DNA from: Roseofilum reptotaenium CS-1145
Lineage (GTDB): Bacteria > Cyanobacteriota > Cyanobacteriia > Cyanobacteriales > Desertifilaceae
Length of the DNA: 64,000 nucleotides
Direction: 5' to 3'
NCBI RefSeq assembly: GCF_028330985.1
Contig: NZ_JAQMUE010000064.1
Location: 1 to 64,000, forward strand
The notes under the pieces were generated by a model that worked only from the letters and a program-made list of their open reading frames with translations, searched no databases and was not told the origin of the DNA. The translations under genes and the position numbers were made by a program. Below are positions 42,438 through 59,916 of the stretch, in pieces. Position 1 is the first letter of the stretch; each line of letters opens with the position of its first letter.

Positions 42438-42482
42438 ATGTTACAGTGTCTCAAGATCCAGAATACAATTGCAACTCAATAG
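42438..42482 (+). CDS. Possible 14-codon leader peptide before the PKS operon
   Basis: The ATG at 42438 has AAGG 7 bases upstream inside AGGAGAAAGG, a better ribosome site than that of the PKS itself. It encodes M-L-Q-C-L-K-I-Q-N-T-I-A-T-Q and stops at 42480-42482, 101 bases before the PKS1 ATG. It lies just after the inverted repeats at 42374-42420. No codon run suggestive of a specific amino acid signal was seen. Confidence 0.35.
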   Translation: MLQCLKIQNTIATQ

Positions 42483-42583
42483 CGAAGCTATCCTATAGTT
42501 ATCATTGTATTGTTGGCTCTTCTAATGTGGATCGAAAATTAAATCAAAACGTTTTTCCAGTGCATCAGGAATCAGTTGAGTTT

Positions 42584-45500
42584 ATGAAATATTCCATTGA
42601 ACAGAAGAATGGTGCTGATATTGCAATTATTGGTATGGCTTGTCGGTTTCCTGGAGCTGATGACTACAACCAATATTGGGAAAATTTGGAAAAAGGAGTC
42701 AATAGTATAAGTGAAATTCCGCCCCAAAGGTGGGACGTAGAAAAGCATTATTCTCCTATTCCTAATCAACCGAATAAGACAATCAGTAAGTGGGGCGGAT
42801 TAGTTGAAGGGATAGATGAGTTTGATGCTGAGTTTTTTAGTATTTCTCCCCGAGAAGCAGGAAAAGTAGACCCACAACATAGAATTATGTTGGAATTGAC
42901 CTGGTCTTGTATCGAAGATGCAGGTTACTCCCTCTCCCAAGTTTCAGGAAAAGATATCGGTGTTTTTATCGGGGCGTGCAACTATGACTCTATTCTGTTG
43001 ATGAACCAAGATCAACAGAATGTAGAAGGTCATAGTGGAACAGGTACTTGGACTTGTATGATTCCCAACCGCATCTCTTCATTTTTTAACCTACATGGCC
43101 CAAGTATTCCGATAGATACAGCCTGTTCAAGCTCACTGGTTGCTCTTCATTACGCCCTGAAATCTCTCAAAGAATCAGAATGTGACATGGCATTGGTCGG
43201 TGGACTGAGCGTGTTATTTACTTCAACAACCTACATCCAGATGAGTCAACTGGGCATGTTATCGCCCACAGGACAATGTAGAACATTTAGTAGTGATGCG
43301 GATGGTTATGTTAGGGGAGAAGGTGCAGGAGTCGTTTTATTAAAACCTCTCACCAAAGCTATAGAAGATGGCGATCGCATTTATGGTGTCATTCAAGGAA
43401 GTGCGATTAATCACGGAGGACAAGCCAGAACGATCACATCCCCCAATGTCTATGCCCAAGCTCAAGTCATTCGTTCAGCCCATAGCAGAGCCAATATTTC
43501 TCCCAATACAGTATCTTACATAGAATCTCATGGAACAGGAACACCATTGGGAGATCCGATAGAAATTAATGCCCTGAAAAGAGCCTACAGACAACTTTAT
43601 CAACAGTATGGAGTTAAAAAAACGGAGAAACCCTACTGTGGGATAGGAGCAGTAAAAAGCAATATTGGGCATTTAGAAGGAGCAGCAGGAATTGCGGGAT
43701 TAATCAAAGTCCTATTAGCAATGAAGCACAAAAAACTGCCCCGCATAGTGAACTTCAAAGCCTTAAATCCACGCATTAACCTTAAAGATACTCCGTTCTA
43801 TATGCTAGAGGAAAATCAAGCGTGGAAGCGATTAAAAAATGAATCGGGAGAAGAGATCCCGATACGTGCTGGCTTAAGTTCTTTTGGGATCGGTGGCGTT
43901 AATGCTCATGTTGTATTGGAAGAATACCGAGAAGCAGTCAAAGTTGATAGCCATCTCGAACGTCCAAAACAGATTTTGTCCTTATCAGCACAGACAGAGC
44001 CAGCCCTGAGAGATCTGGCAACAAAATACCAAACTCATTTAGAATTAAAGCCTGAAGAATCACTACAAAGCATCTGCTTCAGTGCCAATACGGGGCGGAC
44101 ACATTTTGCAGAAAAATTAGCCATAGTAGCAGATTCAAACAGCGATTTACAGGAGAAAATAGCCGATTTCCTTCAGAATCATGAAAGAACTGGTGTGGTA
44201 AGAGGAAAGGCAGAAAGCCAGGAGAAAGAGATTGCTTTTCTGTTTACTGGGCAGGGGTCTCAATATGTGGATATGGGACGACAGTTATATGAGACTCAAC
44301 CCCTATTTCGGGAAAGTTTAGACCAATGCAATGAAATTCTAAAAGAATATCTAGAAATCCCTCTATTAGAAGTTATATATTCTCAGTCAAGCGCTTCTTT
44401 ATTAGATCAAACGGCTTATACGCAACCCGCTTTATTTTCTCTGGAATACGCCCTAGCTAAGTTATGGGAATCTTGGGGGATTAAACCCAATGCAGTCATG
44501 GGACATAGTGTGGGAGAATATGTGGCAGCAACAGTGGCAGGCGTTTTTAGTTTAGAAGAGGGTCTAAAATTAATTGCCATGCGGGGAAGGTTGATGCAAC
44601 AGTTACCCCGTGGTGGAGAGATGGTGGCAGTGATGGCATCAGAATCTCAAGTTAGGGAGGCGATCGCACAATCGAATTCCCAAGTAACAATAGCAGCCAT
44701 AAATGGGGCGGAAAGTATAGTGATTTCTGGGGAGAGTGGGGCGATCGCAACCCTCTCTAGTAAATTGAAATCACAAGGCGTTAAAACCAAGCCTTTACAA
44801 GTATCCCATGCTTTCCATTCCCCACTAATGGAGCCTATGTTGGCACAGTTTGAAGCAGTCGCTCAGGAAGTCACCTATAGTCAGCCTCGGATACCCGTCA
44901 TATCAAATGTCACTGGTCAAAAAGTCGATGCAGACATGGCAACTGCTCAATATTGGGTCAATCATGTCCGACAACCTGTGAAATTTGCCCAGAGTATAAA
45001 AACTCTCCATGAAGAAGGGTATAAAGTTTTCTTAGAAATTGGTCCCAAACCCATATTGTTAGGAATGGGAAGACAATGTTTACCAGAAGATGTGGGAGTA
45101 TGGTTGCCCTCGTTACGTCCTGGAGTAGAAGAATGGCAGCAAATGCTATTAAGCTTAGGACAATTGTATGTCAAAGGTTTCAAGGTGGATTGGTCTGGGT
45201 TTAATCAAGATTATACGAATCAGAAAGTTGCGTTGCCCACCTACCCATTCCAGCGAGAAAGATATTGGATAGATCCTTCTGAGAATCAAGATCGGAATAT
45301 GACTGATCAAAGTTCAAATTCACTTCTTGAACTCATTAGTCGAGGGGATTCAGAGGAATTAATTCAAGAGCTGAAGTTATCGGAAGAATTAACAGAAGAT
45401 GAAGAAAAAGTATTACCTAAGTTGTTAAGTATTTTGAAAGCTAAGTATCAAAAGCACCTGCAAGACCAGGGTGATGTAGTGGGTGACTTTTATGATGAGT

Positions 45501-48328
45501 TAGCTTCGTTGACAGATGAAGAAGCAATTTTGAACTACATTCCTTTGCCAGGGATTATCAAAGGATTTTCATGGGTTCTATTTTTTGCCAAACTAAAAAT
45601 ACAAGAAAGATATCACAAATTAGCATCAACAGCCCAGCAAGAGATTAGAAATATAGCTTGGCAGAAAGTCGATTTTTCTGCTTGTCGTAAAGTTCTAGAT
45701 ATTGGTTGTGGCCATGGAACTGATTTAATGACTTTAGGTCAGAAGTATAATCACTTAGAGCTTTGTGGCTATACAATATCAGAAGGGCAAGTAGAATTAG
45801 GAAACAAAAAAATCCGTGAATTAAACCTAGAAGAACGGGCAAGAATTGTTAATGGAGATAGTTCTCAGGATGAGTTTCCAGATCATTACGATTTGATATA
45901 TGGATTTGAAGTTATTTGTCACATCAAGAAGAAAAAGGAACTCTTTGTAAATATCAAGAATCACTTAAATGACAAGGGTCATTTCGTAATATCAGACTTT
46001 ATCTCTAATGCCTCATTTAACATTGATTATGATGCTCATTCATCTTATCTGATCGCTCAACAAGAGTGGCTGTATCTATTATCAGAAAGTCATATTAAAA
46101 TCATCCGTTATGTAGATATTAGTCATGAGATGGCTAATGGTTTAGACGATCCTAATTTCCCAGAGAATCTCGACTATGTATGTAGAAAAAGTAATTTAAA
46201 CGAGAATGCCAGAGTCGGGCTGCAATCTTATGACAACCTCTACAAGATGTTGCGTAAGGGGCTAGTCAGCTATGTAGTCATGACAGCCCAAAAGCAAGAT
46301 TCATTGTCAGTAGACGAAATTTACCAGTGGAACCAAGAAATTCTACAGAACCCCCTACGTTACTCTGATGTTTCATTACAACAATTTTTCTATGGCATAG
46401 AATGGCAAAAAGTAGGCGCTCGGCAACAGCAGAAAAAAAGACCGCAGCCAAGAACTTGGATCATCTTCAGCACTTCGGCTTCGCTCAGTGACCACGATAA
46501 AGAGGGTGTAGGGGAAAGACTGAAAAATAGCTTGGAAGAAAGAGGCGATCGCTGTTTGACGGTATTTATGGGGGAAACCTATAATCCAAAGGAAACCGGA
46601 AGTTGGGAGCTAAACCCATCTAATCCAGCCGATTTTGAGCGTTTTTGCCAAGAGGCAAAGGTTGGGGAAAGTCCGAGAATCATTCACTTGTGGAGTCTGG
46701 AAACTACACCTTCTCAACAACTCACGCAGTCAGCTTTAGAGTCAGGACAAAAGAATGGTTGTGGTAGCGTCTTGCATCTGGTGCAAGCTATGGAAAAACA
46801 CTGGAACTCATCCTCACCTCAACTGTGGTTAATGACTCAAGGTTCCCAGTCAATCCTGCCTTCCGAAGAAGTGGCAATAGCCCAAACCCCACTTTGGGGA
46901 CTCGGAAAAGTCTTATCTTTGGAACATCCTCAATTATGGGGAGGATTAATAGACTTAGATCGCCAATCTTCCACAAGTGAAGCAGAAATCCTACTACAAG
47001 TTCTAGAAGAGGAAGCAGAAGAAGATCAACTGGCGATTCGGAATGGAGAAATCTATGTAGCTCGTTTAGAAAGACAACTTTTAGCAGAGTCTAAACCCGT
47101 ATCCTTGAGTGAGGAAGGAAGTTATTTAATTACTGGGGGCACAGGCGCATTAGGATTGAGTGTAGGTCAATGGCTGGTAGAGAAGGGATGTCAACATCTA
47201 ATGTTAATCAGTCGCTCTCAGCCATCAGAGCAAGCACAATTGAGAATTGAGAGTTTACGCAAGCAAGGAGCAGAGGTAGTTGTAACTCAAGCCGATGTAT
47301 CTGTGCAAAAAGATATGGAGAAGGTATTCAAGCAAGTGAAAGAAACAATGCCACCTCTCAAAGGAGTAATTCATGCAGCAGGACTTGTAGGATTTAACCT
47401 GCTTAAGGAGATGGAAATTTCTCAACTTGAAGCCATATTGCGTCCCAAAGTAGTAGGAGGATGGGTACTACATCAATTAACTCAGAAGCTTGAGCTAGAC
47501 TTTTTTGTGAATTTCTCCTCCATTGCCTCAGTATGGGGTTCTAAAGGCCAAGCTCATTATGCAGCAGCTAACCATTTTCTGGATGGATTAACCGATTATC
47601 GCCAATCTCTGGGATTACCAACCTATAGCATCAATTGGGGGCCTTGGTCAGGAGGCGGAATGGCAGCAGGAGAGTCCATGGATTGGTTAAACCAAATGGG
47701 CGTAAAACCTCTAGAGCCAGAAAGAGCGATCGCCGCTTTGGAGAAAGTCTTAGCCAGCAATAGTCCTCAAACCGTAGTCGCAGATATCAATTGGGATTTA
47801 TTTAAGGATCTCTATGAACTCGGAGGTAAACGGTCATTTCTGTCCGAAATTTCCCTGGACTCAGAAGCAACAGATAGAGAACGCTCTTCGGAACAGAAAT
47901 CCGAAGTGTTACAACAACTTTATGAAGTTCCAGAAAGCGAACGGCTCGAAATACTGATCGAGCATCTGCAAACTGATGTCGCTAAGATTATCGGGTTATC
48001 GAAATCCAAACTTCCCGATCCCGAATTAGGATTTTTCCGAATGGGGATGGATTCCTTGATGGCGGTTGAGTTAAGAAATCGGTTGACGGCTACTTTTAGG
48101 TTCTCGATCAGCACAGCCACCTTGTTTGAAAAGTCTAATATTAAAGACTTAGCTGAATACTTGATTGAAGAAATTTTCTCTGAAGAGCCAGAGGAAGAAA
48201 TTGGGGTTGAAGAGATTGACAATATCGCTCCTCCCCAGAAGATAGAAACGGAGTTTGAAGGAGAAATTGATAGTGAGCTTGCTTCAGAGTTAGAAGAAAT
48301 TCAAGCTTTACTGAAGGAGGAAAGCTAA
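42584..48328 (+). CDS. Type I PKS, KS-AT-MT-KR-ACP
   Basis: First enzyme of the cluster, 1914 residues from ATG 42584; the frame is open back to GTG 42446 but that part has no PKS sequence. KS 10-440 has Cys in D-T-A-C-S-S-S (about 180), His in I-E-S-H-G-T-G and in N-I-G-H-L, so it can condense. AT 549-845 has G-H-S-V-G-E and H-A-F-H, which indicates malonyl-CoA. A methyltransferase of about 300 residues (D-I-G-C-G-H-G near 1036) follows, then KR (T-G-G-T-G-A-L-G near 1516, without the L-D-D motif) and ACP (M-D-S-L near 1821). DH and ER are absent, so it would leave a beta-hydroxyl. The acidic C-terminal tail (E-E-I-G-V-E-E) may be a docking element. The next PKS starts 1 base after the stop. 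Confidence 0.9.
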   Translation: MKYSIEQKNGADIAIIGMACRFPGADDYNQYWENLEKGVNSISEIPPQRWDVEKHYSPIPNQPNKTISKWGGLVEGIDEFDAEFFSISPREAGKVDPQHRIMLELTWSCIEDAGYSLSQVSGKDIGVFIGACNYDSILLMNQDQQNVEGHSGTGTWTCMIPNRISSFFNLHGPSIPIDTACSSSLVALHYALKSLKESECDMALVGGLSVLFTSTTYIQMSQLGMLSPTGQCRTFSSDADGYVRGEGAGVVLLKPLTKAIEDGDRIYGVIQGSAINHGGQARTITSPNVYAQAQVIRSAHSRANISPNTVSYIESHGTGTPLGDPIEINALKRAYRQLYQQYGVKKTEKPYCGIGAVKSNIGHLEGAAGIAGLIKVLLAMKHKKLPRIVNFKALNPRINLKDTPFYMLEENQAWKRLKNESGEEIPIRAGLSSFGIGGVNAHVVLEEYREAVKVDSHLERPKQILSLSAQTEPALRDLATKYQTHLELKPEESLQSICFSANTGRTHFAEKLAIVADSNSDLQEKIADFLQNHERTGVVRGKAESQEKEIAFLFTGQGSQYVDMGRQLYETQPLFRESLDQCNEILKEYLEIPLLEVIYSQSSASLLDQTAYTQPALFSLEYALAKLWESWGIKPNAVMGHSVGEYVAATVAGVFSLEEGLKLIAMRGRLMQQLPRGGEMVAVMASESQVREAIAQSNSQVTIAAINGAESIVISGESGAIATLSSKLKSQGVKTKPLQVSHAFHSPLMEPMLAQFEAVAQEVTYSQPRIPVISNVTGQKVDADMATAQYWVNHVRQPVKFAQSIKTLHEEGYKVFLEIGPKPILLGMGRQCLPEDVGVWLPSLRPGVEEWQQMLLSLGQLYVKGFKVDWSGFNQDYTNQKVALPTYPFQRERYWIDPSENQDRNMTDQSSNSLLELISRGDSEELIQELKLSEELTEDEEKVLPKLLSILKAKYQKHLQDQGDVVGDFYDELASLTDEEAILNYIPLPGIIKGFSWVLFFAKLKIQERYHKLASTAQQEIRNIAWQKVDFSACRKVLDIGCGHGTDLMTLGQKYNHLELCGYTISEGQVELGNKKIRELNLEERARIVNGDSSQDEFPDHYDLIYGFEVICHIKKKKELFVNIKNHLNDKGHFVISDFISNASFNIDYDAHSSYLIAQQEWLYLLSESHIKIIRYVDISHEMANGLDDPNFPENLDYVCRKSNLNENARVGLQSYDNLYKMLRKGLVSYVVMTAQKQDSLSVDEIYQWNQEILQNPLRYSDVSLQQFFYGIEWQKVGARQQQKKRPQPRTWIIFSTSASLSDHDKEGVGERLKNSLEERGDRCLTVFMGETYNPKETGSWELNPSNPADFERFCQEAKVGESPRIIHLWSLETTPSQQLTQSALESGQKNGCGSVLHLVQAMEKHWNSSSPQLWLMTQGSQSILPSEEVAIAQTPLWGLGKVLSLEHPQLWGGLIDLDRQSSTSEAEILLQVLEEEAEEDQLAIRNGEIYVARLERQLLAESKPVSLSEEGSYLITGGTGALGLSVGQWLVEKGCQHLMLISRSQPSEQAQLRIESLRKQGAEVVVTQADVSVQKDMEKVFKQVKETMPPLKGVIHAAGLVGFNLLKEMEISQLEAILRPKVVGGWVLHQLTQKLELDFFVNFSSIASVWGSKGQAHYAAANHFLDGLTDYRQSLGLPTYSINWGPWSGGGMAAGESMDWLNQMGVKPLEPERAIAALEKVLASNSPQTVVADINWDLFKDLYELGGKRSFLSEISLDSEATDRERSSEQKSEVLQQLYEVPESERLEILIEHLQTDVAKIIGLSKSKLPDPELGFFRMGMDSLMAVELRNRLTATFRFSISTATLFEKSNIKDLAEYLIEEIFSEEPEEEIGVEEIDNIAPPQKIETEFEGEIDSELASELEEIQALLKEES
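46471..46493 (+). repeat. CACTTCG...CTCAGTG palindromic repeat inside PKS1
   Basis: CACTTCGGCTTCGCTCAGTG plus ACC, with CACT/AGTG ends, is related to 49697-49719 and 54753-54775. Here it is translated in frame (S-A-S-L-S-D-H) in the region before the KR Rossmann domain. Confidence 0.75.
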
Positions 48329-48329
48329 A

Positions 48330-51300
48330 ATGAGCATATCCAAAGAAGTGCTTCAAACTTTGAAGGAAATGCGGGGTAAGCTTGAAGCGGTCAATAAAGC
48401 CAAAACCGAACCGATCGCCATTGTGGGAATGGCCTGCCGATTTCCTGGAGGAGCGACTGACCCCTCAAAATACTGGAGTTTGTTGCATGATGGCATAGAT
48501 GCCATTACCCCCGTTCCTGGCGATCGCTGGGATGTCAGTGCTTATTACGATCCCGATCCAGAAGTTCTAGGGAAAACTTACACCAAAGAAGGGGGATTTA
48601 TTGAGCAAGTTGACCAGTTCGATCCCCTATTTTTTGGCATCTCTCCCAGAGAAGCCGCGAGTTTAGACCCTCAGTACAGATTACTTTTAGAAGTCACTTG
48701 GGAAGCACTGGAAAATTCTGGGCAAACCTGGACAAACCTGAAGAATAGTCAGACCAGTGTCTTCATGGGGATCTCCACAGATGACTATTCTTCCGTCATT
48801 TTCAACGAAGCCAAAAGTTACCCGACTCTGGGAAGTAATAGAAGTATTGGAGTCGGTCGTATTTCTCATCTCTTGGGTTTGCAAGGGTCTAATATACAGG
48901 TCGATACCGCTTGTTCGAGTTCTTTAGTGGCGGCCCATTTAGCTTGTCAGAGTTTGCGATCGGGAGAATCCAACTTAGCCTTAGTGGGTGGAGTGAATTT
49001 AATCTTATCGCCCTTCAGCACGATTGGTCGTTGCCAACTGAGGGCACTAGCCCCTGATGGTCGTTGCAAGACGTTTGATGCGTCTGCAAATGGTTATGGT
49101 CAGGGAGAAGGATGTGGTGTTCTGGTTTTGAAACGCTTGTCTGATGCAGTGAGTGATGGGGATCTAATTTCAGCCGTGATTCGAGGTTCTGCGGTTAATC
49201 ATGATGGGCCCAGTAGTGGGATGACCGTTCCCAATAGAATGGCTCAGAAAAAGGTGATTCAACAAGCTTTGAGCAATGCCAAGTTAGAACCCGATCAAAT
49301 TAGCTATTTGGAAGCTCACGGTACAGGAACGTCTTTAGGAGACCCCATTGAGATAGAAGCTCTGGCAGAAGTATATGGCAAAAAACGTCCAGTAGATGAC
49401 CCTCTAATTGTGGGGTCAGTCAAGACGAATCTTGGGCATTTGGAAGCAGCAGCCGGTGTATCATCGTTGATGAAGGTGATTTTAGCCCTTAAACATCAGG
49501 AAATCCCCCCTCATTTGCATTTAAAAGAACCGAATCCCCATGTAGATTGGGATCGATTACCCATCAAAATTCCGACTTCATTAATGCCTTGGTCTGACGA
49601 GGGCAAACCCAGAATAGCAGGGGTGAGTTCCTTTGGGATGGGCGGGACTAATGCTCATATCGTTTTAGAAGAAGCACCAAGAGAAGGCAATAGGCACACT
49701 TCGACTGCGCTCAGTGACCAAACTTCGACTGCGCTCAGTGACCAAGGCAACAGTGAAGATCAGTTAGAACGTTCGCTGCACATCTTGACTCTCTCAGGTA
49801 AAACAGAAAAAGCTTTAGAAGATTTAGTTAGTCGTTATCAAAAGCATTTAGAAACGAATCCCGATGTGGCAATAGCAGAGGTTTGTTATACAGCTAATAC
49901 GGGAAGGCAACATTTTCAGCATCGACTAGCCGTGATTGCTTCTGACCCAAAGGAATTAGCTGAAAAGCTATTGGGTTGGAAAAGAGGACAGGAAGTCGTT
50001 GGCCTCTCTTGTGGACAATTCGATCGGGGTAGCGCAAGCTCTAAAATAGCTTTCCTATTCACCGGGCAAGCTTCCCAGTATGTGGATATGGGTAAGCAAT
50101 TGTATGAAAGTCAGCCAACTTTTCGCCAAGCTTTAGATCGATGCGACCAAATTTTACAGCCCTATCTAGACTATCCTTTATTAGAAGTTCTCTACCCGAA
50201 AGAAGAACAAAAGTCAAGCTCTAGTTTGTTAGACCAAACCGCTTATACCCAACCGGCTTTGTTTGCGGTTGAATACGCTTTGTTCAAGTTATGGGAATCT
50301 TGGGGAATTAAACCCAATGTAGTCATGGGTCACAGTGTCGGAGAATATGTAGCAGCAACTGTGGCAGGAGTGTTCAGTTTAGAAGAGGGTCTGAAGTTAG
50401 TTGCTGCGCGGGGACGGTTGATGCAACAGTTACCCCCTGGTGGAGAGATGGTGGCAGCGATCGCATCGGAATCGGTGGTGCAAGAGGAGATCGGCGACGA
50501 TGCTTCAAAAGTTACGATAGCAGCAATTAATGGGCCGGAAAGTACGGTGATTTCTGGGGAGAGTGGGGCGATCGCCAGCATTTGCACTAAATTAGAAGCA
50601 CAAGGCATTAAAACCAAACCTCTACAGGTATCCCATGCTTTTCATTCCCCACTAATGGAGCCAATGTTAGCCGAATTTGCAGCAGTCGCTCAGGAAGTGA
50701 CCTATCGTCAACCGAAAATAAAGTTCGTATCCAATGTAACTGGACAAAAAGCGGGAAATGAAGTCACTAAAGCAGAATATTGGGTCAATCATATCCGACA
50801 ACCCGTACAGTTTTATCAAAGTATAAAAACGTTGCACGAGCAGGGAAATGAACTCTTCTTGGAAATAGGGCCGAAACCCATTTTGCTCGGCATGGGGTCT
50901 CGATGTCTACCAGATGTAGGAGTATGGTTGCCATCCTTACGTCCTGGTGTAGCAGAATGGCAACCAATGCTATCAAGTTTAGGACAGTTGTATGTCAAAG
51001 GCATAACCGTGAATTGGTCAGGATTTGACCAAGATTATACTCGTCAGAAAGTAGCATTGCCAACCTATCCATTCCAAAGAGAATGCTGCTGGGTAGAAAT
51101 AAATAAACAGAAGGAACCTCAAACATCCGGGGGAATTACCGAGACTTCAATCGTAAAATTACTCAGTCAAGGAAAAACAGAGGCGATCGCTCAACAACTG
51201 GAAAGATCCGTAAACCTTTCACCCGAACAGCGTAAACTTTTACCCGAACTCTTAGAGGCATTAGCTAAACAACATCAGGAACAATTAGCCGCAGCAGCGA

Positions 51301-53321
51301 TCGCAAATTGGTTCTATGAAATTCAATGGAAACCTTTAAATCGATCTGGCTCTCCAAACAATATGCAACCGAGTCATTGGTTGATTTTTGCCGATCGCAC
51401 AGGCATAGCTGAAAAATTCGCCCAAAAATTACAACAACAGGGCCATCAATACAGCTTAGTTTATCGGGGAAAGAGTTATCAAAAACCAGAAGCAGGAAAA
51501 TATCAGCTCAATCCTTCCATTCCTGAAGAATTTGATCAACTGTATCAAGAAATTCAAGACGGGAATCAACTGCCCTTGTCAAGGTTAATTCATTTGTGGA
51601 GTTTAGACGCTCCAGAATCTAAAGACTTAACCCTTGATGCTTTACAAGAAACCCAATTATGGGGATGTGGCAGCGTGATGCACCTGGTACAAACTTTGCT
51701 TAAAAACGCCAGCCTCTCCCCACTGTGGTTAGTAACTCGTGGCTCTCAGTCCGTATTATCTCAAGAGAAAAATATACCAGGATTAGCAGCCTCGACCCTG
51801 TGGGGATTAGGTCGAGCCATATCCCTAGAACATCCCCAATTATGGGGAGGATTAGTAGATCTAGACCCACAAGCTTCAGTAGAAGACGAAATAGAAATGC
51901 TGTGGCAATTATTAGGGAATGAGCAAGAAGAAGATAATTTAGCCTTACGGGGAGAACAGAGCTATGTCGCTCGTCTAGCAAACCAAGAACCTCCAGAATT
52001 TCCTCAATCCCTATCCTTATCATCAGATGGGAGTTACCTAATAACCGGAGGGTTAGGAGCTTTAGGACTACATACCGCAGAATGGTTGGTAGAAAAGGGA
52101 GCTAAAAATATTATCTTAACGGGTCGCCGCCCTCCTTCAGAAAAAGTCCAAGAATCCATACAGCAGTTAGAACAAGCAGGATGCCAAGTCAAGGTGTTAT
52201 TAGGAGATGTTTCTATTGAAGAACAGATCGCCCAAATTCTGGAGCAAATTCAGACCTCAATGCCAGGACTTAAAGGAATTATTCATACAGCAGGAGTGCT
52301 GGATGATGGAACCCTACAACAGATGAATTGGGAGCGTTTTTCTCAAGTCATGTCGCCCAAGGTTACAGGAACTTGGAACTTACATCAATTAACTCAAAAT
52401 CTGCCCTTAGATTTCTTTGTCTGTTTCTCCTCAATAGCTTCCTTAATCGGTTCCCCCGGTCAAGGAAATTATGCGGCGGCCAATGCATTTATGGATGCTT
52501 TCGCGGGTTATCGTCGGAGCATAGGATTATCAGGACTAGCGATTAATTGGGGAGCCTGGGCATCTGAGGGAATGGCGGCTCGTTTAGCAGTGGAACATCA
52601 AAATCGCATCCAGAGCAGTGGGGTAAGTGAGATTGCCCTCAAAGAAGGAATGTATGCCTTGGAGTTACTGTTAGGAAATCAAATTGCAGATCCCCCTCCA
52701 GTCCCCCTTAGAAAGGGGGAAGTTAGAGAATGCTGCGCTGTTCCTGGTCAGGTCGGCGTAATACCCGTAGAGTGGTCGGTATTGGCAGAGCATTGGAGTG
52801 GTCTGCAAAAAAGTTCGTTACTACGAGAATTATTAGAGCAGGAGGAATTGGCAGAACGAGATACACTGAAGCAGAAAGTCAAAGCCGAAATTTTAGCAAA
52901 ATTAGAGGCAGCATCACCAGAGGAACGTCAAGAAATTTTAATTGAACATATTCGAGGGCAAGTCGTTCAGGTGCTAGGTTTAAGTTCATCCCAGTTACCA
53001 GAAATGAATGTAGGGTTTATGGAAATGGGCATGGATTCTTTAATGGCAGTGGAATTAAAAAATCGACTGCAAAATCAACTGGGAACTCATTTACCTGAGA
53101 CCCTAGCGATGGAATATCCCACAATTGCCAAATTGTCCTTATATGTAGAGGAGTTAATGGAATGGAAGACAACCGAAAATGGTACATTCTCTGATAAACT
53201 GAGTCCAACTGATGAATCGGAAATAGAGGGCGATATATTGCCAGATATTGAAGATATTTCAGAAGAAGATTTTGAAGCCCTAGCCGCTCAACAACTCGAA
53301 AAACTAAAGAATATGCTCTAA
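48330..53321 (+). CDS. Type I PKS, KS-AT-KR-ACP
   Basis: The 1663-residue second module is read after AAGGAGG with a 1-base gap from PKS1, so it is translationally linked. A short N-terminal helix (about 1-22) may dock onto PKS1. KS 24-445 has D-T-A-C-S-S-S, E-A-H-G-T-G and N-L-G-H-L. AT 573-870 has G-H-S-V-G-E and H-A-F-H, which points to malonyl-CoA. KR (T-G-G-L-G-A-L-G near 1240) contains the L-D-D motif of B-type reductases, predicting a D-configured beta-hydroxyl. ACP M-D-S-L is near 1568. There is no DH, ER or MT. Two dispersed repeats are translated within it, one in the KS-AT linker and one in the KR-ACP linker. Confidence 0.92.
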   Translation: MSISKEVLQTLKEMRGKLEAVNKAKTEPIAIVGMACRFPGGATDPSKYWSLLHDGIDAITPVPGDRWDVSAYYDPDPEVLGKTYTKEGGFIEQVDQFDPLFFGISPREAASLDPQYRLLLEVTWEALENSGQTWTNLKNSQTSVFMGISTDDYSSVIFNEAKSYPTLGSNRSIGVGRISHLLGLQGSNIQVDTACSSSLVAAHLACQSLRSGESNLALVGGVNLILSPFSTIGRCQLRALAPDGRCKTFDASANGYGQGEGCGVLVLKRLSDAVSDGDLISAVIRGSAVNHDGPSSGMTVPNRMAQKKVIQQALSNAKLEPDQISYLEAHGTGTSLGDPIEIEALAEVYGKKRPVDDPLIVGSVKTNLGHLEAAAGVSSLMKVILALKHQEIPPHLHLKEPNPHVDWDRLPIKIPTSLMPWSDEGKPRIAGVSSFGMGGTNAHIVLEEAPREGNRHTSTALSDQTSTALSDQGNSEDQLERSLHILTLSGKTEKALEDLVSRYQKHLETNPDVAIAEVCYTANTGRQHFQHRLAVIASDPKELAEKLLGWKRGQEVVGLSCGQFDRGSASSKIAFLFTGQASQYVDMGKQLYESQPTFRQALDRCDQILQPYLDYPLLEVLYPKEEQKSSSSLLDQTAYTQPALFAVEYALFKLWESWGIKPNVVMGHSVGEYVAATVAGVFSLEEGLKLVAARGRLMQQLPPGGEMVAAIASESVVQEEIGDDASKVTIAAINGPESTVISGESGAIASICTKLEAQGIKTKPLQVSHAFHSPLMEPMLAEFAAVAQEVTYRQPKIKFVSNVTGQKAGNEVTKAEYWVNHIRQPVQFYQSIKTLHEQGNELFLEIGPKPILLGMGSRCLPDVGVWLPSLRPGVAEWQPMLSSLGQLYVKGITVNWSGFDQDYTRQKVALPTYPFQRECCWVEINKQKEPQTSGGITETSIVKLLSQGKTEAIAQQLERSVNLSPEQRKLLPELLEALAKQHQEQLAAAAIANWFYEIQWKPLNRSGSPNNMQPSHWLIFADRTGIAEKFAQKLQQQGHQYSLVYRGKSYQKPEAGKYQLNPSIPEEFDQLYQEIQDGNQLPLSRLIHLWSLDAPESKDLTLDALQETQLWGCGSVMHLVQTLLKNASLSPLWLVTRGSQSVLSQEKNIPGLAASTLWGLGRAISLEHPQLWGGLVDLDPQASVEDEIEMLWQLLGNEQEEDNLALRGEQSYVARLANQEPPEFPQSLSLSSDGSYLITGGLGALGLHTAEWLVEKGAKNIILTGRRPPSEKVQESIQQLEQAGCQVKVLLGDVSIEEQIAQILEQIQTSMPGLKGIIHTAGVLDDGTLQQMNWERFSQVMSPKVTGTWNLHQLTQNLPLDFFVCFSSIASLIGSPGQGNYAAANAFMDAFAGYRRSIGLSGLAINWGAWASEGMAARLAVEHQNRIQSSGVSEIALKEGMYALELLLGNQIADPPPVPLRKGEVRECCAVPGQVGVIPVEWSVLAEHWSGLQKSSLLRELLEQEELAERDTLKQKVKAEILAKLEAASPEERQEILIEHIRGQVVQVLGLSSSQLPEMNVGFMEMGMDSLMAVELKNRLQNQLGTHLPETLAMEYPTIAKLSLYVEELMEWKTTENGTFSDKLSPTDESEIEGDILPDIEDISEEDFEALAAQQLEKLKNML
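49697..49745 (+). repeat. Tandem 24-bp repeat from the CACTTCG palindrome inside PKS2
   Basis: The unit starting ACTTCGACTGCGCTCAG occurs twice with a 24-base period (49698-49721, 49722-49745). It is read in frame as T-S-T-A-L-S-D-Q twice, in the linker between KS and AT. The first base context completes the palindromic element also found in PKS1 and PKS3. Confidence 0.9.
52689..52721 (+). repeat. CCCCCTT palindromic repeat inside PKS2
   Basis: GATCCCCCTCCAG then TCCCCCTT-AGA-AAGGGGGA (52702-52720) has an 8-bp perfect stem. It is translated in frame as D-P-P-P-V-P-L-R-K-G-E in the KR-ACP linker. Similar GATCCCCCT elements occur near 37411. Confidence 0.8.
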
Positions 53322-53352
53322 AATTAACCCTATAAGTTAAGGCTAAAATTTT

Positions 53353-56300
53353 ATGGAACCGACTACCAAAAAAGAGGATCTCTCATTATCCAAACAGATG
53401 TTTTTAGCTTTAAAACAAGCTGAAGCTAAATTGGAGAGGATGGAGCGCTCAAAAAGTGAGGCGATCGCAATTATCGGTATCGGTTGTCGGTTTCCTGGAA
53501 ATGCCAACACACCAGAGCTATTCTGGGACTTGTTATCAAAGGGTCAAGACGCGGTTAGAGAGATTCCCTTAGAACGTTGGGATATAGAGTCTTACTATGA
53601 CCCCAACCCTGAGACTCCAGGGAAAATGTATATCCGGCACGCAGCATTAGTGGAGCAGGTCGATCAGTTCGATCCGCAATTTTTTGGTATCTCTGGCAAA
53701 GAAGCACACAGCCTTGACCCACAGCAACGTTTTATTTTAGAAGTAACTTGGGAAGCTCTAGAAAGAGCGGGTATTAATCCCCAGGACTTAGAAAACACTC
53801 AGACTGGAGTGTTTATGGGGATCGGTCAAAATGATTATGCGAACTTGGGGTTGAGCCAAGTTGAAAAGATTAGCCCTTACGATGCAACCGGAAATGGATT
53901 TTGTTTTGCAGCCGGTCGGTTATCTTACTTTTTAGGGTTGCAAGGCCCCTCCATGGCAATAGATACAGCGTGTTCATCCTCTTTGGTCGCTATCCATGAA
54001 GCTTGTCAGAGTCTGCGTCAGGGTGAGTCTAATCTAGCTTTAGCTGGAGGGGTTCAACTGATTCTCTCTCCTCAAGTGACCACTGCACTCTCAAAATTAA
54101 AGGCTCTATCACCCGATGGCAAGTGCAAAACGTTTGATGCTGCTGCTGATGGTTATGGTCGGGGAGAGGGATGTGGCATCATGGTGCTGAAGCGTTTGTC
54201 GGATGCACTCAAGGATGGGGACAATATCCAGGCAGTCATTCGGGGTTCAGCCGTTAATCATGATGGGCCGAGTAGCGGACTGACTGTACCGAATAAACTC
54301 GCTCAGGAAAAACTGATTCAGCAAGCTCTGAAAGCAGCTAAATTAGAACCGGATCGCGTGAGCTATGTGGAAGCACATGGTACAGGAACGTCCCTGGGAG
54401 ACCCGATGGAAGTGAGAGCATTAAGTAGCGTGTTTGGGCCGGGACGAGATCGCCAAAACCCATTGCACATTGCTTCAGTTAAAACCAATATCGGTCATCT
54501 AGAAGCTGCTGCTGGAATTGCTGGTGCGATCAAGGTCGTTTTGCAACTACAACATCAAAAAATTACCCCTAATCTGCATTTTACTAATCCTAGTCCCTAT
54601 ATTGATTGGGAGAATATACCTTTAAAAGTTCCAACTCAACTGACCCCTTGGCTCTCATCAGGGGAGAAAAGAGTAGCAGGCGTAAGTTCTTTTGCGATTA
54701 GTGGTACCAATGCTCATATTATTTTAGAAGAAGCACCCAAAGAAGACAGGCACACTTCGACTCCGCTCAGTGACCAAGGCAAGAGTGAAGATGACTTGAA
54801 AGGTTCGGTTCATCTCTTAACTCTCTCAGCTAAAACAGAACAAGCGTTAGAAGATGTAGTCAGTCGTTATCACAACTATTTAGAAAATCATCCAGAGTTA
54901 CCCCTAGCAGATATTTGTTATACAGCTAATGCAGGCAGAGCGCATTTTAATCATCGACTCGGTGTTATTGCTTCTGAGCCAAAGGAATTAACAGAAAAAC
55001 TGGTGGACTGGAAAACGAAGAAAGAAGTCGTAGGGGTATATTCTGGACAACTCGATGGAAGTAGCCAAAGTCCAAAAATAGCGTTCCTCTTCACAGGTCA
55101 AGGTTCCCAATATGTGAATATGGGAAGGAAACTGTATGAAACTCAGCCAAGTTTCCGTCAAGCTTTAGACCGATGCGACCAAATTTTACACGCCTATCTA
55201 GAAGTCCCTCTATTAGAAATTCTCTACCCTAAAGATGCACAAAACTCAACGGTATTAGACCAAACCGCTTATACTCAACCGGCTTTGTTTTCTATAGAAT
55301 ACGCCCTAGCCAAGTTATGGGAATCTTGGGGAATTAAACCCAATGCGCTCATGGGTCATAGTGTGGGCGAATATGTGGCAGCAACTGTAGCAGGAGTATT
55401 CAGTTTAGAAGAGGGTCTCAAATTAATTGCTATGCGGGGAAGGTTGATGCAACAGTTACCTCCGGGTGGTGAAATGGTGTCTTTGTTAGCATCAGAATCT
55501 CAAGTCAGAGAAGCTATAGGTGAGGATGTTTCCAAAGTAACAATTGCAGCTATAAATGGGCCGGAGAGTGTCGTAATTTCCGGGGAGAGTGGGGCGATCG
55601 CCACCCTTTGCAGTAAATTAGCCTCACAAGGTATTAAAACCAAGCCGTTACAAGTATCCCATGCTTTCCATTCCCCATTGATGGAGCCAATGTTAGCAGA
55701 GTTTGAAGCAGTCGCTCAGGAAGTCACCTATAGTCAGCCTCGGATACCCATCATCTCCAATGTCACCGGTCAAAAAGTAGGTTCAGACATGGCTACAGCT
55801 CAATATTGGGTCAATCATGTCCGACAACCCGTAAAATTTGCCCAGAGTATGAACACTCTAAAGGAGCAAGGGTATGAATTATTCCTAGAAATTGGTCCTA
55901 AACCCATATTACTGGGAATGGGTCGTCAATGTTTACCAGAAGATGTAGGAGTCTGGTTACCTTCTCTACGTCCTGGAGTGGATGAATGGCAACAGCTCCT
56001 CTCAAGTTTAGGACAGTTATATGTACGGGGGACTCAAGTAGACTGGTCAGGGTTTAACCCAGATTATCGCTACCAGAAAGTAATCTTGCCCACTTATCCA
56101 TTTCAGCGGGAAAGGTATTGGGTAGAAACCGGAAGTTCTCAAGCTATCTCTACACCTAAACTTCATCCTCTAATTAATCGGAAATTTCAATCTCCGTTAT
56201 CAAAAGATATCTTTTTTGAGTCCGAATTTAGCACCTATGCTCTACCCTTTTTAGCCGATCACCGAATCTATGAAAAAGTAGTTGTGCCTGGTGCCAACCA

Positions 56301-59300
56301 CATTTCCCTATTGTTAGGAAGTGCCTCTCTAACCTTTGCTGCAACTAGATGTCAACTGGAGGATATTCTGTTCCCCCAAGCCTTAGCGATTCCCGAAGAA
56401 GGAATCCGAACGGTTCAGGTCGCCTTAACTCCACAGGAGAGCGACTATTCATTTCAAGTGATTAGTTTAGATAGCTCTAAGGAGAGTAATTCTTGGGCTG
56501 TTCATGCTACCGGGAAAATCCATCCGACCCATATTGAGTCGCAGCAGTCTATAGAAACCATCGCCGAAATTCAAGCTCGTTGTCCTCAAAACATTGAAAG
56601 CACAGAAATTTACCAGAATCTATGGGATAGACAGGTTCAATTAAGGGAGCGTTTTAGATGGATCGATCGAGTCTGGTTAGGAGAAGGGGAAATCCTGTGC
56701 CAAATGAAAGTACCAGAGACGATCTTAGATGCAAAAGATTATCAAATACATCCCGCATTAATTGACTCCTGCTTTCAGTCAGTGGCTGCACTTAACCTCA
56801 GTCTTTCTGAGGATCAAACTGAAACGTTTGTTCCGTTCAATATCAAGAGATTTACGTTTTATCAGCGCCCTGAGAACGGTTCGCTTTGGTGTTATACCCG
56901 TGGATTGAAAGAAGGAGAATCAGAGGATAAACTGCTCAAAGCCGAAATACAATTATTTGACCAAACGGGGAAATTAGTAGCTGAAGTCAATGGTTTTGAG
57001 GGTAGGAAAGCAACACCGGAAACCTTACTCAAGAGTCTAGATTCCGATTTAAGTGATTGGTATTATGAAATTAGCTGGGAAGCTCAACCTTTAACCGAAA
57101 CTGCACAATCTAGTGAAAATGCTGGTCAATGGTTAGTCTTTGCATTGACCGATCAATTTACAGAGTCTATAGGGCAGTATTTACAAGCAAGAGGACAGAA
57201 CTATATCGGGATATCCCCAGGCTCAGATTATCAGCAGCTAGATGCTCAACATTATCAAATTAATCCCACTGTTGCCGAACACTTCCGCAAACTGCTGCAA
57301 GAGAATTCTGACATTAAAGGTATTTTGCACTTATGGGGTATCAATGAAACTGAGGATTTACAAATAGCTCAAGAACTCGGTTGTGCAACAGCTCTACATT
57401 TAGTGCAAGCTTTAACGGAAGCTGGACTCAGTCATGCCCTACCGATGTGGTTAGTGACTCAAGGGACTCAGAAGATATGGGACGAAGCAGAAGTAGTCCA
57501 ACCCCAACAAGGAAGTTTATGGGGACTAGGGCGTGTAATTCGTCTAGAACACCCAGAATTAAAATGTTGCCGAATAGATTTAGACCCCAAATCGAGTCTT
57601 TCTGAAATGCTCCCTAGTTTAGTCGATGAACTCTTGGCGAAGAGTAATGAAGACCAGATTGCAATTCGTCAGGGAATTCGTTATGTAGCTCGCTTAATCC
57701 GACAACAAAAACCGCAAATTAGCTCAGAAGAAAACTTAGGATTAGAACGTCAACCCCTAGAGTTGAAGTTGTCTGAATATGGACTGATAGATAACCTCAA
57801 CTGGCAGGTCATGCAGCGCCGTTCTCCACAAGCAAATGAAGTAGAGATTGAAGTCAAAGCCGCAGGTTTAAACTTCCGAGATGTACTCAATTCTTTGGGT
57901 TTACTGAAAGACTATTATGCTCAGGTATTGGGGATTACTGACGTAGCTCAACTTAACTTTGGCTTAGAATGTGTCGGTGTTATTGCCTCTGTGGGAGACA
58001 ATGTGTCTCAGTGGCAGGTGGGAGATGAAGTCATGGCGATCGTTCACAATGGCTTTAGTAGTTTTGTTACTACTCCTGCTGAGTTAGTTATGGCTAAACC
58101 GAAACATCTGAGCTTTACGGAAGCAGCCACCTTACCCTTAACTTTTGCTACAGCTTACTATGGATTACAATACTTAGCTAAAATTCAGCCCGGCGATCGC
58201 GTATTAATTCATGCTGCGGCAGGAGGGGTAGGGCAAGCGGCAGTTCAAATTGCACTCCAACTAGGAGCGGAAGTCTTTGCTACAGCGAGTCCTCCCAAGT
58301 GGGAGTTTCTCAAGTCTATGGGGGTCAAACACATCATGAATTCCCGGACTTTAGAGTTTGCCGATGAAATAATGAGTCTTACTGGGGGGAAAGGTGTAGA
58401 TATCGTCTTAAATAGTCTGAATGGGGACTTCATTGATCGGAGTTTTGCGGTTTTAGGGAACAAAGGACGATTTGTAGAAATTGGCAAAATCGGAATTTGG
58501 GACAAACAAAAGGTAATGGAGACGCGGCCAGATGCTGAATACTTGCCTTTTGATATTGGAGTGACGATCCAACAACAACCCGGTTTAATTGCGGAATTTT
58601 CAGAAGCATTAAACCAACAATGTTCATCAGGAACACTGAAGCCATTGTCTTATAAAGTATTCCCCAGTACACAAGTGCAAGCGGCTTTCCGATATATGCA
58701 ACAGGGTAAGCATATCGGGAAAGTGGTTGTTTCTCTGCCAGAAACTGGAGAAGACAAAACATCGATCAAACCAGACGCAAGTTATCTAATTACAGGAGGT
58801 TTAGGGGCTTTAGGTTTGGAAGTCGCCCAATGGATGGTATCCGAAGGAGCCAAGCATATCGTATTAACGGGGCGAAGAAGTCCGAATGAAACGGCACAAA
58901 ACGCGATCGAGCAGTTAGAAGCAGCAGGAGCATCGGTCAGTGTTTTATTAGGGGATATTTCTACTCAAGAGTCTGTAATGAACATCTTAGAAGAAATATC
59001 GACTTCGCTACCTCCGCTCAAAGGAGTGATTCATGCTGCTGGGGTGTTGGATGATGGGGTATTACAAAAGATGAGCTGGGAGAAATTTATGAACGTGATG
59101 GCTCCCAAGATGTCAGGAACCTGGTATTTACATGAACTGACTCAGAATTTACCTTTAGATTTCTTTGTGTGTTTCTCGTCAATGGCTTCGATGTTGGGCA
59201 ATTTTGGCCAAGGCAATTATGCTGCGGCGAATGGTTTTATGGATGCAATCGCTCACTATCGCCAAGGTCAGGGTTTACCCGGATTGAGTATTAACTGGGG

Positions 59301-59916
59301 AGCCTGGGCAACAGCAGGAATGGCGGCTCGTTTGGCCAGGGAACATCAAAATCGAATGCACAGTAGCGGAGTAGTGGCAATTAAACCGGAATTAGGAATG
59401 CAAGCATTGGGTTCATTGTTGTCAGGATCTCAAAGCCAAGTCGGGGTGTTTCCGGTGAATTGGCAGGAGTTTTTTAGACAGATGCCAGGATTGGCAAAAC
59501 TCCCATTTTTAGAAGCGTTTACCACAAAATCAGGAGAACCGGATCAGAACTCTCGGATTTTAGAACAGCTCGATCTTGCTTCCGATCGTGAACAAGAAAC
59601 AGTATTGACCGCTTATCTCCAAACCAAAATTGCTCATATTATGGGGATGACGGTTTCTCAAATAGAGTTACAAAAATCTCTAACTATGATGGGACTTGAT
59701 TCATTGATGGCTGTGGAATTGCGAAATCAGGTTCAAACTGAGCTTTTAGTCGATATTCCAGCGACCCGATTTATGGAAGGAATTACGATTGAGCTTCTAG
59801 CAACTGAGATTCAGCAACAACGGATTCAAACAGATAACCAGCCAAGGATTGAATCGAGTAAGGAAGAGCAACCGGATGAAAATAAAGAGAGTAATTGGAT
59901 AGAGGTGGAACTATGA
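53353..59916 (+). CDS. Type I PKS, KS-AT-DH-ER-KR-ACP (fully reducing)
   Basis: The 2187-residue third module starts 31 bases after PKS2. The N-terminal helix (about 5-33) looks like a docking coil. KS about 35-465 has D-T-A-C-S-S-S, A-H-G-T-G and N-I-G-H-L. AT about 576-870 has G-H-S-V-G-E and H-A-F-H (malonyl). DH (about 945-1235) has H-R-I-Y-E-K-V-V-V-P, with Glu in place of the motif Gly, and D-S-C-F-Q. ER (about 1490-1790) has the NADPH loop A-A-A-G-G-V-G. KR has T-G-G-L-G-A-L-G near 1814 and L-D-D. ACP L-D-S-L is near 2114. It would add two fully reduced carbons. Its stop overlaps the NRPS start by ATGA. Confidence 0.93.
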   Translation: MEPTTKKEDLSLSKQMFLALKQAEAKLERMERSKSEAIAIIGIGCRFPGNANTPELFWDLLSKGQDAVREIPLERWDIESYYDPNPETPGKMYIRHAALVEQVDQFDPQFFGISGKEAHSLDPQQRFILEVTWEALERAGINPQDLENTQTGVFMGIGQNDYANLGLSQVEKISPYDATGNGFCFAAGRLSYFLGLQGPSMAIDTACSSSLVAIHEACQSLRQGESNLALAGGVQLILSPQVTTALSKLKALSPDGKCKTFDAAADGYGRGEGCGIMVLKRLSDALKDGDNIQAVIRGSAVNHDGPSSGLTVPNKLAQEKLIQQALKAAKLEPDRVSYVEAHGTGTSLGDPMEVRALSSVFGPGRDRQNPLHIASVKTNIGHLEAAAGIAGAIKVVLQLQHQKITPNLHFTNPSPYIDWENIPLKVPTQLTPWLSSGEKRVAGVSSFAISGTNAHIILEEAPKEDRHTSTPLSDQGKSEDDLKGSVHLLTLSAKTEQALEDVVSRYHNYLENHPELPLADICYTANAGRAHFNHRLGVIASEPKELTEKLVDWKTKKEVVGVYSGQLDGSSQSPKIAFLFTGQGSQYVNMGRKLYETQPSFRQALDRCDQILHAYLEVPLLEILYPKDAQNSTVLDQTAYTQPALFSIEYALAKLWESWGIKPNALMGHSVGEYVAATVAGVFSLEEGLKLIAMRGRLMQQLPPGGEMVSLLASESQVREAIGEDVSKVTIAAINGPESVVISGESGAIATLCSKLASQGIKTKPLQVSHAFHSPLMEPMLAEFEAVAQEVTYSQPRIPIISNVTGQKVGSDMATAQYWVNHVRQPVKFAQSMNTLKEQGYELFLEIGPKPILLGMGRQCLPEDVGVWLPSLRPGVDEWQQLLSSLGQLYVRGTQVDWSGFNPDYRYQKVILPTYPFQRERYWVETGSSQAISTPKLHPLINRKFQSPLSKDIFFESEFSTYALPFLADHRIYEKVVVPGANHISLLLGSASLTFAATRCQLEDILFPQALAIPEEGIRTVQVALTPQESDYSFQVISLDSSKESNSWAVHATGKIHPTHIESQQSIETIAEIQARCPQNIESTEIYQNLWDRQVQLRERFRWIDRVWLGEGEILCQMKVPETILDAKDYQIHPALIDSCFQSVAALNLSLSEDQTETFVPFNIKRFTFYQRPENGSLWCYTRGLKEGESEDKLLKAEIQLFDQTGKLVAEVNGFEGRKATPETLLKSLDSDLSDWYYEISWEAQPLTETAQSSENAGQWLVFALTDQFTESIGQYLQARGQNYIGISPGSDYQQLDAQHYQINPTVAEHFRKLLQENSDIKGILHLWGINETEDLQIAQELGCATALHLVQALTEAGLSHALPMWLVTQGTQKIWDEAEVVQPQQGSLWGLGRVIRLEHPELKCCRIDLDPKSSLSEMLPSLVDELLAKSNEDQIAIRQGIRYVARLIRQQKPQISSEENLGLERQPLELKLSEYGLIDNLNWQVMQRRSPQANEVEIEVKAAGLNFRDVLNSLGLLKDYYAQVLGITDVAQLNFGLECVGVIASVGDNVSQWQVGDEVMAIVHNGFSSFVTTPAELVMAKPKHLSFTEAATLPLTFATAYYGLQYLAKIQPGDRVLIHAAAGGVGQAAVQIALQLGAEVFATASPPKWEFLKSMGVKHIMNSRTLEFADEIMSLTGGKGVDIVLNSLNGDFIDRSFAVLGNKGRFVEIGKIGIWDKQKVMETRPDAEYLPFDIGVTIQQQPGLIAEFSEALNQQCSSGTLKPLSYKVFPSTQVQAAFRYMQQGKHIGKVVVSLPETGEDKTSIKPDASYLITGGLGALGLEVAQWMVSEGAKHIVLTGRRSPNETAQNAIEQLEAAGASVSVLLGDISTQESVMNILEEISTSLPPLKGVIHAAGVLDDGVLQKMSWEKFMNVMAPKMSGTWYLHELTQNLPLDFFVCFSSMASMLGNFGQGNYAAANGFMDAIAHYRQGQGLPGLSINWGAWATAGMAARLAREHQNRMHSSGVVAIKPELGMQALGSLLSGSQSQVGVFPVNWQEFFRQMPGLAKLPFLEAFTTKSGEPDQNSRILEQLDLASDREQETVLTAYLQTKIAHIMGMTVSQIELQKSLTMMGLDSLMAVELRNQVQTELLVDIPATRFMEGITIELLATEIQQQRIQTDNQPRIESSKEEQPDENKESNWIEVEL
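54753..54775 (+). repeat. CACTTCG palindromic repeat inside PKS3
   Basis: A single copy starting CACTTCGACTCCGCTCAG is read in frame as T-S-T-P-L-S-D-Q in the KS-AT linker, the same site as the tandem copies in PKS2. It differs from them by one base in the core. Confidence 0.85.

Follow-up and report, generated by a model that had tools for sequence, protein, structure and literature searches.

The window, that is the whole stretch of DNA analysed here, comprises the first 64,000 nucleotides of NZ_JAQMUE010000064.1 (contig 64) of Roseofilum reptotaenium CS-1145, whose genome of 5.67 Mb is assembled in 113 contigs. Roseofilum acuticapitatum and R. halophilum, along with the metagenome-assembled genome (MAG) UBA2566, are its closest named relatives. 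Three polyketide synthase (PKS) genes lie in the window, each an open reading frame (ORF) carrying, in frame, a short repeat that is the subject of this report (Table 1). An earlier note on this DNA had placed copies at 46471, 49697 (two in tandem) and 54753, and had them read in frame in all three proteins. Scanning the window with the pattern ACTTCGACTSCGCTCAGTGACCA, with up to 3 mismatches allowed, gave four in-frame copies, all on the plus strand, at 46472-46494 (2 mismatches), 49698-49720, 49722-49744 and 54754-54776, and none in the shuffled-sequence control; the positions were thus right to within 1 bp. The readings were also confirmed in the three ORFs: FSTSASLSD in PKS1, HTSTALSDQTSTALSDQ in PKS2 and HTSTPLSDQ in PKS3. 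The duplicated form in PKS2 adds, as claimed, eight residues, or exactly 24 bp.

Table 1. Coordinates of the PKS genes and of the repeat-related features within them (positions in the window)
Feature	Position	Strand	Description
PKS1 ORF	42446..48328	+	1960 aa; KS-AT-cMT-KR-ACP by Pfam (cMT, methyltransferase)
24-bp insertion with one repeat copy, PKS1	46472..46495	+	Read within ..FSTSASLSD..; beside the first strand of the KR structural subdomain; from orthologue alignment
PKS2 ORF	48330..53321	+	1663 aa; KS-AT-KR-ACP by Pfam
KS-AT linker, PKS2	49644..49805	+	54 residues vs 34 in empty orthologues
Left copy of 10-bp direct repeat AAGGCAAYAG, PKS2 insertion	49684..49693	+	Possible target duplication or heptamer remnant
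First 26-bp repeat unit, PKS2	49694..49719	+	6-nt arm, 14-nt loop, 6-nt arm
Exact tandem duplication, PKS2	49698..49745	+	2 x 24 bp; TRF 100% match, period 24; adds 8 residues
Right copy of 10-bp direct repeat AAGGCAACAG, PKS2 insertion	49744..49753	+	Sequence and alignment reading
PKS3 ORF	53353..59916	+	2187 aa; KS-AT-DH-ER-KR-ACP by Pfam
26-bp repeat unit in KS-AT linker, PKS3	54750..54775	+	Read HTSTPLSD; site filled in UBA2566, empty in L059 and L060

The repeat is dispersed over the whole genome and, judged from sequence comparison, it is very probably a non-autonomous mobile element, a small dispersed repeat, some 26 bp long, in which a conserved 14-nt loop is held by a covarying stem of about 6 bp. 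This reading draws on the dispersal of the copies, the covariation of their stems, their presence or absence in relatives, the insert lengths in multiples of three, the nesting and the tandem duplication. The genome-wide search found 54 copies of the core TTCGNCTNCGCTCAG and none of the reversed pattern used as control. Alignment of all 54 copies reveals the conserved loop TTCGACTNCGCTCA, flanked by a stem which varies among copies yet stays complementary. At the first stem pair 35 copies have C-G and 16 have A-T, with complementarity in 52 of the 54 against 29.1 expected, while the third pair is complementary in 34 copies (23.1 expected) and the fourth in 31 (18.3 expected). The mean stem measures 4.74 bp against 2.48 bp in permuted data, where the maximum of 2000 permutations was 3.33. 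Past the sixth pair no clear covariation signal was seen among the 54 copies; because the covariation ends there, around a loop of 14 nt, the unit is put at about 26 bp (6+14+6). The description 'palindromic' in the earlier note holds for the family. Among copies elsewhere in the genome, the GCTCCC..GGGAGC stem type is frequent. Stem length showed no clear difference between genic and non-genic copies (Mann-Whitney p = 0.14), and the A-T stem subtype was commoner in genic copies (14 of 29 vs 3 of 23, uncorrected Fisher p = 0.009, with 2 further copies of neither subtype). Some copies are nested, one lying within the loop of another (L030, L035, and L045, the last in a PKS linker of another Roseofilum genome).

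A copy with a 22-bp perfect stem (L014 3021-3078, contig C54 of the same genome) sits inside the conserved enzyme gene for squalene-hopene cyclase, and the sister genome has a short-stem version. Rfam offered no identity for the repeat, only sub-threshold miRNA models on this long hairpin, which is a match of shape. The same pair of alleles fits the alternative that the copies originate and multiply chiefly through template switching during replication and through gene conversion at quasi-palindromes, rather than by transposition, with the covariation a by-product of fold-back copying. The existence of 24-bp tandem duplications fits that account as well, and so does the target in GltX, which resembled the 5' part of the element beforehand. 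However, template switching would not readily put one and the same 14-nt loop into dozens of unrelated loci, and we regard it as an unlikely alternative to a mobile repeat.

By an ORF caller based on codon usage, 31 of the 54 copies fall within 23 ORFs. The genic count is given as 27-31 because four copies within the first 12 codons (L005, L009, L019 at 3167, and L035) may precede the true start. With ORFs covering 70% of the DNA examined, 37.7 genic copies were expected, so that the deficit is marginal (p = 0.054). Genic copies are read in both directions and in five frames, yielding peptides such as TSTPLSD/STPLR, FDSAQG, LRLRSG, SLSGVEG and TERSR. Their hosts include the genes for glutamate synthase (GltB), CarB, PheT, PlsY, pyruvate:ferredoxin oxidoreductase (PFOR), GltX, ValS and an RND permease; Pfam adds a TRCF-type helicase, an alpha-2-macroglobulin and an AMP-binding enzyme. 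Some of these genes are probably essential. The encoded peptides themselves are most likely neutral passengers.

Several loci carry more than one insertion. One 1174-codon ORF (L013 1602-1741, contig C54) holds four in-frame copies in 140 bp, read in three different frames. The RND efflux permease (L025 3053-3090) has an inverted pair of copies in one loop, and its counterparts in two other Roseofilum genomes (L139, L149) have extra insertions, one of them a block of the C5..G5 type. In another genome (G005 contig 1; L151 2417-2479) three tandem copies with 24-bp spacing are in frame, reading TSTPLSDR three times, just upstream of LIVDDHWENR, which we take to be the start of a response-regulator receiver domain.

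Alignments were made for 10 of the 20 non-window ORFs with copies, across six Roseofilum genomes, and for the three PKS sites, giving 13 sites. At 12 of these the block is missing from at least one Roseofilum orthologue, which is therefore read as recent insertion and not as conserved linker peptide; the exception, the squalene-hopene cyclase, was set aside as unclear. All net inserts are multiples of three, from 18 to 36 bp or 6 to 12 residues: 24 bp in PKS1, GltB and GltX, 18 bp in CarB and PFOR, and 36 bp in the L010 gene and in PKS2 of UBA2566. A tree from 2342 aligned residues makes the window genome and UBA2566 sisters, their amino acids 2.9% apart. The GltB and GltX inserts are found in the window genome only and are missing from this sister, and those of CarB, PFOR, PKS2 and PKS3 are common to both. 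All three PKS inserts are filled in some Roseofilum and empty in others. The PKS1 insert is carried by the window and by R. halophilum (L060) but not by R. acuticapitatum or three Okeania (L059, L062, L063, L077), and its site is unread in UBA2566, whose contig L150 gave no alignment there. In PKS2 the site is filled in UBA2566 (L061) and empty in R. halophilum and R. acuticapitatum. The tandem pair is unique to the window; UBA2566 has a single copy within an insertion of 36 bp, that is 10 + 26.

These alignments also bear on the simplest alternative, in which no mobile element exists and ordinary low-complexity linker sequence encodes a peptide rich in serine and threonine by chance. KS-AT linkers are indeed variable and tolerant. 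Nevertheless, unrelated proteins use this DNA in five different frames, the copies number 54 against none for the reversed pattern, and the insert is missing as a discrete block in orthologues. Distant PKSs do not conserve the peptide, and neither do the CurL and DEBS structures that were aligned. The empty sites and the copies in other frames refute the chance reading, and we give it almost no credence.

The earlier note had placed all the copies in linkers. That is right for PKS2 and PKS3, where they occupy the matching position between KS and AT. In PKS1 the insert (approximately residues 1342-1349) follows the strand WIIF, and the PF21394 match begins at residue 1355, at profile position 12. 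It thus lies in a loop bordering the KR structural subdomain, not in an interdomain linker. An AlphaFold2 model of the PKS2 KS-AT region has a mean pLDDT of 85.9, and in it the insert is a loop (model residues 426-450) with pLDDT below 50, flanked by two confident strands; the insert is thus predicted to be a disordered loop. The PKS2 copy is also flanked by AAGGCAAYAG, which resembles, at this one locus, the (GGCAACA)n arrays of Okeania and Moorena linkers. The pair around the insert may represent duplicated target DNA (10 + 26 = 36 bp) or what is left of older heptamers.

The matching sites in PKS2 and PKS3 may not record two independent events. A single insertion could have been copied between the modules by gene conversion, which is compatible with a mobile repeat as its source. 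Both paralogues have the same position and flanks in both filled species, and their nucleotide identity, taken over the 150-column bin in which the linker falls, reaches 0.79 in both of these species but 0.69-0.70 in the two that are empty. However, the shared element itself lifts this local identity, and at core position 8 both filled species have G in PKS2 but C in PKS3. We consider the chances of conversion and of independent insertion to be evenly balanced.

Taking the repeat as a mobile element, new copies would arise from a hairpin intermediate, of DNA or RNA, that is inserted by host or other machinery acting in trans. Insertion would be largely indifferent to coding, and selection would then retain in-frame inserts in surface or disordered loops. 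The KS-AT linker would be a tolerated loop of this kind, already growing and shrinking by heptamers, so that it may gather small repeats again and again.

Several points weigh against this reading. The case for mobility is comparative throughout, and no mobilising enzyme was identified for the repeat. The PKS copies of the window have stems of 2-3 bp only, of the type ..CAC..GTGACC, and as single strands their folding energy is no better than that of shuffles (z 0.45-0.64), so that for these copies the word 'palindromic' does not hold. No consistent target-site duplication was seen: there is a 10-bp direct repeat at PKS2, a 9-bp one at GltX, and none evident at PKS1, CarB or PFOR. In GltX the 9-bp repeat CCTTCGACT flanks the 24-bp insertion, and the empty allele already resembles the 5' part of the element. 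Finally, the filled pattern of PheT, ValS and the L010 gene conflicts with the species tree. Together with that of PKS1, where the sister is unread, these patterns require recombination, loss or parallel insertion.

Another known machinery that was considered is that of the repetitive extragenic palindromic (REP) elements and REPINs, which are moved by the RAYT (Y1) transposase. The Roseofilum repeat is likewise a short hairpin in many copies, Y1_Tnp domains occur in five of the six Roseofilum genomes, and REPs within genes are on record (PMC3733652). Yet genome G003 has 107 copies and no Y1_Tnp match; in the window genome all 9 Y1 matches are more than 5 kb from any copy, and L096-L099 are without copies. 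Column counts over the 54 copies gave no invariant GTAG or CGTC beside the core, and there is a single close opposite-strand pair (L025). With neither the GTAG/CGTC tag nor a Y1 transposase linked to the repeats, we rejected membership in the REP/RAYT group, and mobilisation by a RAYT appears very improbable. The repeat also does not fit the miniature inverted-repeat transposable elements (MITEs), which have terminal inverted repeats and a target-site duplication of constant form; no constant duplication was seen across the 13 alignments.

The claim that the repeat is scattered through many cyanobacterial genomes agrees with a survey of the phylum, in which the core matched in 71 of 292 genomes. 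At least 10 copies were present in 20 genomes, and 18 of these, counted from our table, belong to the same order as the window. All five other Roseofilum genomes carry the core (22-141 copies), and four genomes from other genera of the family have 0-2. Within one genus the count is 117 in G108 against 1, 0 and 0 in G015, G104 and G121, as expected from a burst. Four Okeania and Moorena genomes have no copy, whereas 14 copies were counted in Nostoc NIES-2108 and 11 in a MAG that is labelled Deltaproteobacteria.

The idea that linkers act as tolerant landing sites finds support in the KS-AT linker, which collects unrelated repeats too. Between NAHIVLEEAP and LERP.HLLTLS, the corresponding linker stretch of related PKSs from other genera carries GGCAACA heptamers, AAAGTCA-type heptamers, the palindrome GTAGGGGCGAAYGGCC or a CCCCCC..GGGGGG palindrome. 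The GTAG-form palindrome has 198 and 167 matches in two Okeania genomes, and the triple heptamer has 271 and 195 in two Okeania and 63 in one Moorena, overlapping matches in one array being counted separately. We scanned 65 PKS ORFs (371,889 bp), of which 57 recognised KS-AT linkers make up 6,894 bp (1.85%). Repeats of four unrelated kinds gave 36 hits, of which 23 fall in these linkers, namely heptamer arrays (10 of 10), GTAG palindromes (5 of 7), the element (5 of 8) and C5..G5 palindromes (3 of 11); the 36 hits are partly non-independent, through both ends of some GTAG palindromes, orthologous loci and contigs sharing a genome. Linker lengths peak at 34 residues (21 of 57) and 41 (17 of 57), with none at 38-40, and the distinct 41-residue linkers have a best period of 7 bp in 15 of 17. 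A step of seven residues is 21 bp, or three heptamers, the smallest in-frame step. In the set labelled non-cyanobacterial there were only two heptamer arrays, both in L091, a cyanobacterium wrongly included (as was L090). A second, smaller sample (L043-L058; 17 ORFs, 5 recognised linkers) weakens this result, with only 1 of 4 heptamer arrays in a recognised linker. The linker is thus a hotspot yet not the sole one.

In all four species compared, nucleotide identity between PKS2 and PKS3 is 0.45-0.73 in the KS, and over the stretch that begins with the linker and runs through the AT it is 0.67-0.88. A wider, speculative proposal casts the KS-AT linkers as repeat nurseries in cyanobacterial modular PKSs at large, which would lengthen or shorten in quanta of seven residues, receive unrelated mobile hairpins and, through shared repeats, offer crossover points for exchange or homogenisation of AT domains between modules; we think this rather improbable as a whole. 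The KS-AT linker of another PKS of the window's own cluster (L152, C64:64001-83900) contains (TGGCAAC)3 heptamers.

Among known systems, the repeat resembles the small dispersed repeats (SDR) of Nostoc and not REP/RAYT. SDR1-8 of Nostoc punctiforme and relatives, described by Elhai and colleagues in 2008, are reportedly dispersed stem-loops of 21-27 nt with compensatory changes. They are also said to show nested insertions, association with tandem heptamers and concentration in one cyanobacterial subgroup. The 26-nt unit, the 54 dispersed copies, the covarying stem-loop, the nested copies and the concentration within a single subgroup seen for the Roseofilum repeat agree with this description. 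The differences are the host and the fact that about half of the Roseofilum copies lie inside ORFs, likely essential genes included. The heptamers of the KS-AT linkers, presumably STRR-type tandem repeats, share the linker site with the element (in Okeania, Moorena, others and L152), but they differ in kind, being growth units of 7 bp that are held in frame in threes.

SDR5 is described as inserting into HIP1 (PMC4390886). The Rickettsia palindromic elements (RPE; Ogata et al. 2000) are likewise in-frame palindromes in many protein genes, conserved ones included, with lengths of 105-146 bp (PMC2229807), whereas the Roseofilum unit is about 26 bp, adds 6-12 residues and is read in several frames. 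REPs with GTAG/CGTC tags are mostly intergenic (PMC3733652), some being inside ORFs such as DNA-repair and tRNA-synthetase genes. The Roseofilum repeat shares with these a small palindrome and similar targets, and differs from them in lacking the tag and the RAYT link and in having 31 of 54 copies in ORFs. Among the papers searched, none prints any of six core variants. Judged by titles and abstract openings, none found for SDR and heptamers, for KS-AT linker repeats or for intragenic cyanobacterial palindromes reports such a case, which is not proof of absence.

In-frame uptake of palindromes has precedents in Rickettsia and in a few REP families; here it concerns a 26-nt repeat that lies within some twenty ORFs of a free-living cyanobacterium. 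Among these are tRNA synthetases and enzymes of central metabolism, and since sister species have orthologues with empty sites, the copies provide a natural set of insertion tolerances. The element would be datable, very small and probably recently active. A PKS loop that repeatedly receives foreign peptide is relevant to the evolution of modules and to the choice of cut-and-join sites.

Two further repeats were observed in the window. A second palindrome in PKS2, CCCCCTTAGAAAGGGGG (52703-52719, plus strand), is in frame as PPVPLRKGE after the KR and is also present in the orthologues L059 and L060; similar palindromes, of the C5..G5 type, occur in Okeania PKSs. At 19780-19827, the 12-bp unit CTTGCAATCCAC stands four times in tandem within a minus-strand ORF.

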